In this document: one piece after another, positions 20,172 through 21,461 of the stretch
Layout of the letters: every line of letters starts with the position of its first letter
Position numbering within the stretch: position 1 is the first letter of the stretch
NCBI RefSeq assembly: GCF_000380505.1
Contig: NZ_AQYH01000007.1
Span: 1 to 64,000, forward strand
Length of the DNA stretch: 64,000 nucleotides
DNA from: Kaistia granuli DSM 23481
GTDB taxonomy: Bacteria > Pseudomonadota > Alphaproteobacteria > Rhizobiales > Kaistiaceae
Direction: 5' to 3'
The notes under the pieces: model-generated
Databases searched by the model: none
What the model saw: the letters and a program-made list of their open reading frames with translations, nothing else
What the model was told of the DNA's origin: nothing
Translations under genes and position numbers: made by a program

Positions 20172-20345
20172 GATGACCCCGATGTTGGCGGCGCGCTGGT
20201 CGCGTCCGCTGCGGGATCGAAGATGGGCGTGCGCCGACATCCCTTTCAAGGGGCGGTCGGCGGGAATGTCTGGGGAGGGGCTGGCGGCGACGTCCGGCGG
20301 GCAAAGCCATCTGGCTTGCAAGCGCCTGGCCCGCGGAGCGGCCAA

Positions 20346-20460
20346 TAAAAAAGCGCCCGTCGGGGAGGAGGTCGACGGGCGCTTTAGTTGATGGTGCCGC
20401 ACAAGGGAGGAGGTTTGTGGGCACCTAATCGCAGGGAACGAGGGAGGAGGTTCGTTCCCC
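20346..20460 (-). ncRNA. Cuckoo/CcsR-type small RNA array: three hairpins with identical anti-Shine-Dalgarno loops
   Basis: Downstream of the DUF1127 gene, the minus-strand transcript would form three successive hairpins: 20434-20459 (8-bp stem), 20393-20425 (11-bp stem with one bulge) and 20350-20385 (13-bp stem). Each displays exactly the loop ACCTCCTCCC, while the stems are unrelated in sequence, so the loop is what is conserved. Alphaproteobacterial CcsR or 'cuckoo' RNAs have this architecture: hairpins with a CCUCCUCCC loop, processed from a transcript that starts with a DUF1127 gene (ccaF1 in Rhodobacter sphaeroides), induced by stress. The loop can pair with GGAGG ribosome-binding sites or bind a protein. 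The family assignment is by structure and context. Confidence 0.85.
20347..20385 (-). terminator. Terminator formed by the last cuckoo hairpin
   Basis: The 13-bp stem at 20350-20385 is followed on the minus strand by six U residues (A run 20347-20352), so the third anti-Shine-Dalgarno hairpin also ends the DUF1127 transcript. Confidence 0.8.
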
Positions 20461-20477
20461 AACGAACTGGGAAATTC

Positions 20478-20627
20478 TCAGTATCCGGCGGCTTGCTTGG
20501 CAATCGCCTTGATGTCGGCGCGGTTGATGCCCAGATCGGTCAGTTCGCGATTGTCGAGCCGCGACAATTCGCTGCGGGTCTCGCGATACTTCATCCAGGT
20601 CTTGTAGGAGGCAACGAGGCTGACCAT
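20478..20627 (-). CDS. DUF1127 small protein (CcaF1-like)
   Basis: A 49-residue Arg-rich protein starting MVSLVASYKTWMKYRETR and containing the DUF1127 core LSRLDNRELTDLGINRADI. An AAAGGAACAG ribosome-binding site precedes the ATG. In Rhodobacter the DUF1127 protein CcaF1 binds RNA and influences processing of the small RNAs encoded just downstream; in Agrobacterium and others the family affects phosphate, carbon and RNA metabolism. Here the same arrangement occurs, with three cuckoo hairpins starting 18 bases after its stop. Regulation by a heat-shock or general-stress sigma factor is expected from the family but I cannot place a promoter with confidence. Confidence 0.92.
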   Translation of the reverse strand: MVSLVASYKTWMKYRETRSELSRLDNRELTDLGINRADIKAIAKQAAGY

Positions 20628-20837
20628 CGTCTGTTCCTTTCACGCCGGTCATTCGGACTACTCAGTGGCGCCGGATTTCTCTGTCGCCGTTCTGATGAGC
20701 TGAATTTAGTCGGACCCGTCCGAGATGAGCAGTATGAAAAAACTCATGCCTGCCCTGCACTGGATGCAGAGCAGCATTGGACGCGGACGTCATGGTGCAC
20801 TGCAATATTGATCTTCCGTTGACGTAATGCGCCGCCC

Positions 20838-21461
20838 TTAGCGCGCCAGGATCGCCAGCGCGCCGGTCAGGATGCAGGCCAGCCACAGCCCGGCGAGGCC
20901 AAACACGCCATAGGCGACGGCGCCCAAAAGCGCCCCGATGCAGAGCGACGCCCAGAGCAGCAGGATCGGCAGGAAGGCCCACCGATCGCCGCCCCGGATC
21001 GCCGTCGCCAGGCTCTGCCCGACCTTGACCAGAGCTCCGGTGACATAGGTGAGGCCGATGCCCGGCGCGCCATTGCGCTGGAAGACGGCGTTCTCGACGC
21101 CCATGGCGAGCGCCATCGCCACGGTGCCGACGATGGCGATGCCCAGATTGTCGGAAAGCGCGGCGACGGCCAGGAGTGCCGTTTCCGTCCAGAGGATGGC
21201 GGCGCGGCGGCTACGCTTGCCGTCCTGACCGACCAGCCCGCCGAGCGTCGCGCCGGCGACGAAGATGGCGACGATGGCCGCGATCTCGGCGGCCTTCATC
21301 CAGTCGCCCATCGCGATGTCGACGCCGAAGCGGGTGGTGTTACCGCTCATGAAGGAGACGAAGACGCCACCGAGATGGCGGAAGCCCATGGCGTCGACAT
21401 AGCCGGCGATCCCGGCCAGCACATAGGCGAGGGCCTTCTGGCGGTGGGTATAGTCCTTCAT
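20838..21461 (-). CDS. DUF1275 (YoaK-like) membrane protein
   Basis: A 207-residue inner-membrane protein with about six hydrophobic helices. The family start (KALAYVLAGIAGYVDAMGF) and GVFVSFMSGNTTRFGVDIA are present, as is GLTYVTGALVKVGQSLA. The biochemical role of the family is unknown; it is often called a YoaK or permease-like protein. It stands alone, 210 bases upstream of the DUF1127 gene on the same strand. Confidence 0.9.
   Translation of the reverse strand: MKDYTHRQKALAYVLAGIAGYVDAMGFRHLGGVFVSFMSGNTTRFGVDIAMGDWMKAAEIAAIVAIFVAGATLGGLVGQDGKRSRRAAILWTETALLAVAALSDNLGIAIVGTVAMALAMGVENAVFQRNGAPGIGLTYVTGALVKVGQSLATAIRGGDRWAFLPILLLWASLCIGALLGAVAYGVFGLAGLWLACILTGALAILAR

Follow-up and report, generated by a model that had tools for sequence, protein, structure and literature searches.

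Small RNAs of the ar14/NfeR1 family count among the 'cuckoo' RNAs, and one described member is NfeR1 of Sinorhizobium meliloti, also named Smr14C2. In the part of the NfeR1 literature available to us, the family is characterised by three hairpins that display identical CCUCCUCCC anti-Shine-Dalgarno motifs on strongly divergent stems, and the NfeR1 loops mediate target silencing (PMC10746234), whereas related S. meliloti RNAs carry either three or four hairpins with anti-Shine-Dalgarno loops (PMC3927594, in excerpt). The targets tested in S. meliloti, according to the same excerpted sources, include ntrB as well as two ABC substrate-binding proteins (PMC10746234, PMC8844928). A second line of work, as far as the accessible text of PMC10253847 relates it, citing Reinkensmeier and Giegerich (2015), associates short DUF1127 genes with CcsR-like RNAs in what is called the CIN1 locus, and places ccaF1-CcsR of Rhodobacter sphaeroides under an RpoHI/RpoHII promoter. 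The basic locus type, a DUF1127 gene with anti-Shine-Dalgarno hairpins, was therefore known before the present analysis. Our literature search returned no paper joining NfeR1 with DUF1127 among the matches listed, with subscription papers incompletely covered and priority correspondingly uncertain, and nothing relevant by title on Kaistia small RNAs among the matches listed; Kaistia is a genus that we have not seen discussed for ar14-type RNA.

The DUF1127-ar14 locus of Kaistia

We analysed a 64,000-nt stretch of Kaistia DNA, hereafter the window. On its minus strand lies a 49-residue DUF1127 ORF (Pfam PF06568, 54.7 bits against a cut-off of 23.3), followed by three hairpins with the same loop (Table 1), an arrangement pointed out in an earlier sequence-only reading and borne out here by the ORF, the Pfam match, the fold and the loop count. 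The protein is 98% identical to its best named relative, from Kaistia adipata DSM 17808 (Kaistiaceae, Hyphomicrobiales), where the locus is likewise present (L139), and a DUF1275 gene (20838-21461, minus strand) is located upstream of the locus in the same orientation. All three loops read ACCTCCTCCC, and their CCTCCTCCC cores occur only three times in the 64 kb, all inside 88 nt, compared with 0.78 copies expected by shuffling (three or more copies in 1 of 100 shuffles). The array folds into three hairpins with every loop open at -59.6 kcal/mol (z = -7.4; 0 of 200 shuffles equally stable). The stem lengths of 8, 11 and 13 bp given in the sequence-only reading hold for hairpins 2 and 3, the former being bulged, but the first stem consists of 9+4 pairs with a bulge. 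The U run after the last hairpin, also described there, is present as a T6 tract; a simple terminator scan, which permits loops of at most 8 nt, did not call hairpin 3. Opposite this hairpin, on the plus strand, a sub-threshold Rfam match to Atu_C9 (20341-20385, 28.5 bits, cut-off 40) probably reflects a similar GC-rich terminator and nothing else.

Table 1. Features of the DUF1127-ar14 locus, in window coordinates
Feature	Position	Strand	Basis
Conserved promoter region	20704..20779	(-)	block conserved upstream of Kaistia DUF1127-ar14 loci
VtlR-motif-like CAATGCTGCTCTGCA, 12/15	20765-20779	(-)	motif from literature
TGCA-N6-GCAT, exact	20746-20759	(-)	NfeR1 form of site
VtlR/LsrB-box-like AGGGCAGGCATGA, one mismatch to box	20744-20756	(-)	motif from literature
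-10-like CTAAAT	20704-20709	(-)	by eye
Shine-Dalgarno AAAGGA of the DUF1127 gene, without GGAG/GAGG core (best loop pairing)	20635..20640	(-)	
DUF1127 gene, 49 aa	20478..20627	(-)	PF06568
ar14 (NfeR1-type) RNA, whole model 1-123	20348..20470	(-)	RF02344
Hairpin 1, loop ACCUCCUCCC at 20442-20451	20429..20465	(-)	fold, loop positions, alignment
Hairpin 2, loop ACCUCCUCCC at 20405-20414	20393..20425	(-)	fold, loop positions, alignment
Hairpin 3, loop ACCUCCUCCC at 20363-20372; probable intrinsic terminator	20350..20385	(-)	fold, loop positions, alignment
T6 run 3' of hairpin 3	20347..20352	(-)	sequence

A covariance-model search for cuckoo RNAs, the check proposed with the sequence-only reading, matched the entire Rfam ar14 model (RF02344) at 75.7 bits, above the gathering threshold of 58.8. 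The CcsR family, to which the RNA had been assigned at first, gave a match over hairpins 1-2 (CcsR1, RF02791) that stayed below threshold at 36.0 bits (cut-off 65.3), and we replace that assignment with ar14. What survives of the original proposal is a cuckoo-type RNA with anti-Shine-Dalgarno loops that follows a DUF1127 gene, a combination published before (PMC10253847, accessible text), and by its covariance match the Kaistia RNA is a member of the already described ar14/NfeR1 family. The three hairpins and the use of the third as a terminator, which the sequence-only reading had marked for comparison with known members, are normal for this family, since the ar14/NfeR1 papers (PMC10746234, PMC3927594, both in excerpt) and the Rfam model, whose 3' end is a helix followed by U, make a triplet with a terminal third hairpin the family norm.

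Conservation in Kaistia and distribution in Hyphomicrobiales

The window's genome contains three ar14 loci over the cut-off, each behind its own DUF1127 gene. Across 14 Kaistia genomes, we found 47 ar14 matches at E <= 0.001, 40 of them over the cut-off, and a DUF1127 stop is present upstream of 43; the four remaining matches are L022, which has lost the gene (see below), and the weak L075, L076 and L078 (31.9-36.3 bits). For structural comparison, we aligned 43 arrays (42 linked ones and L022, without the truncated L077 and the three weak matches), a count that includes orthologues and so does not represent 43 independent events. Exactly three hairpin loops were found in each of the 43 arrays, with a CCUCC-type core (CCTCC, CTCCTC or CCCCTC) in 128 of 129 loops and all three CCUCCUCCC loops exact in 25 arrays. 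Both-side changes were observed in 23 of 37 pairs, compared with 12.9 in shuffles and 4-13 in slid alignments, whereas the number of further pair types showed no excess (45 vs 43.9 in shuffles). Overall, 90.8% of the aligned pair cells are paired; pairing is most complete in hairpin 3 (99.1% of cells), and hairpin 1 is the weakest part of the array, with its loop shortened in L069, L070, L073 and L074. In one paralogue group (L003, L020, L025, L030, L065, L067 and L072), the hairpin 1 loop is longer or altered, while loop 2 is exact and loop 3 mostly so. Judged from this alignment, the loops are mostly kept and the stems covary, in line with the pattern of conserved loops on variable stems that the sequence-only reading had proposed to look for in relatives.

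DUF1127 genes without the loops do occur; their presence in close relatives was the case named at the outset as refuting that reading. The 14 Kaistia genomes contain 67 DUF1127 matches compared with 43 linked arrays, leaving 24 array-less genes, those that were readable encoding divergent proteins; similarly, taking the best 80 of 398 relatives, which are named DUF1127 loci, we saw no loop motif up to 400 nt from the stop in 13, including Martelella. However, we encountered no close orthologue of the window's locus among these loop-less genes.

Beyond the genus, an ar14 match was detected in 66 of 199 sampled genomes of the order, over the cut-off in 34. The loci fall into four arrangements: a DUF1127 gene with one triplet; triplets in tandem after one DUF1127 gene or two, in Mesorhizobium, Aminobacter and family f21; repeated DUF1127-plus-triplet units, in family f38; and solitary ar14 triplets, in other families of the order. 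Two loci of f21 (L038, L040) have two DUF1127 genes and then three tandem ar14 triplets with nine loop motifs, and in f38 (L056, L058, L060) a DUF1127 gene with loop hairpins is repeated three times in succession.

In L022, from the Kaistia metagenome-assembled genome (MAG) G011 (1380-1625), the DUF1127 ORF is cleanly missing, whereas the promoter block and the three hairpins are retained. The upstream neighbour is also kept (91% identity to L032 across 1059 aligned bases), and the 204-nt gap takes out the DUF1127 ORF completely and the 5' UTR for the most part. As a result, the array comes directly after the -10, which is the layout of NfeR1. Although this is one case in one MAG, it supports a single promoter for the DUF1127 gene and the RNA, and suggests that stand-alone ar14 members can arise via loss of the DUF1127 gene. 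Such gene loss with the loops kept is apparently new.

The promoter block and a candidate LysR regulator

The motifs sought in the window were taken from the accessible portions of four papers (PMC10746234, PMC7486931, PMC12595884, PMC8844928). In these portions, the VtlR/LsrB box is given as GCAT-N3-TG-N3-T (PMC7486931, PMC8844928), LsrB binds the abcR1 promoter, where removal of the motif results in a >22-fold drop (PMC8844928), and the NfeR1 site is located at about -72 to -57 from the start (PMC10746234). By eye, the conserved Kaistia block consists of a TGC-N3-GCA-like dyad, a cluster of TGCA/GCAT half-sites and a CTATATTC-like -10, in this order, with the half-sites of the window's locus ~50-61 nt before the -10-like hexamer, a spacing similar to that of NfeR1. 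Taken singly, the window's motif matches are not significant (TGCA-N6-GCAT, 4 found vs 2.2 expected in 64 kb), and its own copy of the box deviates by one mismatch. Among the 43 Kaistia upstream regions, the exact box is present in 27, with a simulated mean of 2.6 and maximum of 7 (200 simulations), and 26 of these 27 boxes are at the conserved position; with at most one mismatch, a box lies between -150 and -100 in 41 of 43 (simulated mean 8.1, maximum 16). Because orthologous promoters are not independent, these figures indicate a conserved matching element rather than 27 separate events.

The same element extends to other genera. Of 112 loci given, 4 had no recognised array; the other 108 comprise 42 from Kaistia, all linked except one solitary array, and the remainder from further genera of the order. 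Among these 108 arrays, the exact box was found upstream of 51 of 78 DUF1127-linked and 13 of 30 solitary arrays, against ~3% in control windows from the same loci. The box is frequent in f21 (6/6 linked, 8/16 solitary), f40 (3/3 solitary), f10 (4/6), other members of the Kaistia family (2/2) and the linked arrays of f41 (11/12 linked, 0/2 solitary), and weak in f38 (2/8) and f24 (1/4). The Kaistia promoter resembles the LysR-type LsrB/VtlR promoter of NfeR1, and an LsrB/VtlR-type promoter that appears common to DUF1127-linked and solitary ar14 loci is apparently new. A candidate regulator is encoded in the window's genome, where trxB is directly followed by a gene for a 296-aa LysR protein (closest solved chain 9hh1_A, a LysR-family regulator); the trxB-vtlR gene order is well conserved according to the accessible text of PMC7486931. 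In the 10 kb around this LysR gene, no Rfam match to an AbcR RNA exceeded the gathering score.

Candidate targets, proposed mechanism and alternatives

The 16S tail of the window's genome is GGATCACCTCCTTTCT, and the loops copy its ACCUCCU. Whole-loop pairing with targets was dropped, as the full 9-nt site (GGGAGGAGGN3-9ATG) is absent from this genome, and we used 7-nt pairing instead. The 7-nt perfect loop complement upstream of a start (GGAGGAGN3-10ATG) occurs at 95 sites, compared with 16 for the reversed pattern; 30 loci and 60 further regions were covered, five listed places not being taken singly. Among the 38 ORFs of at least 150 aa starting behind these sites, 18 encode ABC substrate-binding proteins (L355, L358 and L374 being examples of such loci), alongside a pair of permeases, an ATPase and a TOBE-domain fragment. 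Control Shine-Dalgarno patterns with good 16S pairing but fewer bases paired with the loop (AAAGGAG, 15 ORFs from 30 of 32 sites; AAGGAGA, 15 ORFs not counted before, from the first 30 of 71 sites) yielded no substrate-binding protein among 30 ORFs (Fisher 3e-6, with these controls rather than the genome-wide rate as the base), although they contained one ABC ATPase and one MFS transporter.

This enrichment was not repeated in a second Kaistia genome (G006), where 1 of 14 ORFs encoded a substrate-binding protein, along with one permease (first 30 of 133 sites), and support for the pairing with GGAGG sites proposed in the sequence-only reading is mixed. Genus-wide, at least 4 of 11 ORFs (>=150 aa) behind 9-nt sites encode substrate-binding proteins, these being two pairs of near-identical proteins (30 loci, 29 resolved; 7 of the 11 ORFs or their kind were checked at Pfam level or by profile, the rest by local profiles). 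The target class appears to be new for the window's genome; highly expressed transport genes might also bear GGAGGAG leaders for other reasons. For ntrB, considered as a conserved target, the readable Kaistia leaders have only ordinary Shine-Dalgarno sequences with, by eye, ~4-6 nt of loop complement (L284 and L286 gave no resolved start, and L278 and L285 none where one was expected).

Array-linked Kaistia DUF1127 genes mostly have an AAGGA-like Shine-Dalgarno, and GGAG/GAGG is found in 0 of 43, compared with 7 of 9 array-less genes (from 24 loci, 11 of which were unrecovered by profile and 4 set aside because the protein was long or the start unclear; the start was scored as the best 16S pairing, excluding the last 3 nt before it). 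Outside Kaistia, with 6 single-loop genes set aside, the respective counts are 28 of 108 and 13 of 19 distinct genes (p = 8e-4), but per protein cluster the difference is not significant (7/25 vs 7/12, p = 0.15), for which reason we treat the avoidance of loop-pairing Shine-Dalgarno sequences by array-linked genes as a hint. Of the two DUF1127 genes without an array in the window's genome, one (L256, G000:C19:9787-9919) has a Shine-Dalgarno, TTGGAGGAG, with a 7-nt loop complement (site G000:C19:9904), and is a candidate target of its paralogues' RNA.

We consider it reasonably probable that the locus produces an ar14-type anti-Shine-Dalgarno silencer from the DUF1127 transcript, most likely a silencer of uptake mRNAs that is made from the 3' end of a LysR-controlled message; compared with this core, we are less sure of the LsrB/VtlR regulator and also of the target class. 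Transcription would start at an LsrB/VtlR-type promoter activated by LysR, some 80-150 nt before the start codon, yielding one transcript that encodes the 49-residue protein and then carries the ar14 RNA at its end, where the third hairpin would end transcription. The three redundant CCUCCUCCC loops would imitate the anti-Shine-Dalgarno of 16S rRNA and keep ribosomes from binding mRNAs whose Shine-Dalgarno is of the extended GGAGGAG type, mainly those of ABC-transporter substrate-binding proteins, and the DUF1127 gene, because it uses AAAGGA, would largely escape its own loops.

A CcsR/CcaF1-type reading, in which an RNA-binding DUF1127 protein helps RNase E to excise the hairpins as stress RNAs acting in C1/redox metabolism under an RpoH promoter, draws on the ccaF1-CcsR gene order (PMC10253847, accessible text) and on the weak CcsR1 match, but this match is below its cut-off, the locus has one three-hairpin unit and not four CcsR RNAs, and the promoter block is akin to LsrB/VtlR boxes. 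RNA binding, moreover, has not been established for every DUF1127 protein, as far as the available text of PMC12501420 goes, and we regard this reading as unlikely. Still less likely, in our view, is that the array serves mainly as a 3' UTR and terminator stabilising the DUF1127 mRNA, with the loops preserved on account of a bound protein or the ribosome instead of target mRNAs. The near-complete pairing of hairpin 3, the U run after it and the lack of a 9-nt site in the genome fit such a role; L022, which lost the gene and yet kept all three loops and stems, the solitary ar14 loci in other families, and silencing by NfeR1 through these very loops (PMC10746234, in excerpt) do not.

The hairpins could also be transcribed from a separate promoter within the last part of the DUF1127 gene, making the RNA just a neighbour of that gene. 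Just upstream of the hairpins, a promoter-like TTGCCA-18-GAGAAT (20503-20474; 9/12 matches, 1 found vs 0.1 expected) makes a separate start of the RNA possible. However, this weak site overlaps codons of a conserved protein end and its -10 is unlike CTATAT, whereas the conserved block precedes the DUF1127 gene and, in L022, is retained directly before the array; we consider such a promoter quite improbable, slightly more so than the stabilising role. Returning to the silencer encoded in the DUF1127 transcript, we tentatively suggest a broader possibility, which we hold with less than even confidence: the DUF1127 gene and ar14 could together be a single ancestral LsrB/VtlR-driven module of Hyphomicrobiales, with a LysR regulator controlling a small protein plus a multi-loop silencer of nutrient uptake on one transcript whose own Shine-Dalgarno is adapted to escape that silencer. 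Stand-alone NfeR1-type RNAs would then have arisen from the module via clean DUF1127 loss, as seen in one Kaistia genome.

Such a module would join two outputs of the LsrB/VtlR regulon that have been described apart, small DUF1127 proteins and an NfeR1-type anti-Shine-Dalgarno RNA, would offer an origin for stand-alone NfeR1 RNAs, and leads to a testable rule, that transcripts with anti-Shine-Dalgarno loops should keep a Shine-Dalgarno poorly paired by their own loops. Compared with known systems, the locus resembles ar14/NfeR1 in having three hairpins whose CCUCCUCCC loops are identical and whose stems diverge, and in the final helix followed by U (Rfam model), with a possible LsrB-type box upstream that has one mismatch in the window's copy, but differs from the S. 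meliloti form in the DUF1127 gene placed between promoter and RNA and in the three DUF1127-ar14 loci of the genome. With CcsR1-4/ccaF1 of Rhodobacter sphaeroides (RF02791), it shares a DUF1127 gene directly upstream of CCUCCUCCC-loop RNA, but it has one three-hairpin unit in place of four CcsR RNAs and a covariance score below the cut-off; for the Rhodobacter locus, an RpoHI/RpoHII promoter is reported (PMC10253847, accessible text). The cuckoo RNA/CIN1 locus, compared via the citing text, likewise combines a short DUF1127 gene with CcsR-like CCUCCUCCC-loop hairpins and shows no clear difference. Finally, the VtlR/LsrB regulon of Brucella, Agrobacterium and S. meliloti, as the accessible parts of its literature present it (PMC12595884, PMC7486931, PMC8844928, PMC10746234), shares the GCAT-N3-TG-N3-T box and the trxB-LysR order, and its outputs, namely genes for DUF1127 or small hypothetical proteins together with AbcR/NfeR1 RNAs, correspond to the small protein and anti-Shine-Dalgarno RNA found here; there, however, small-protein genes and RNAs are described as separate genes, whereas in Kaistia both stand behind one promoter block.
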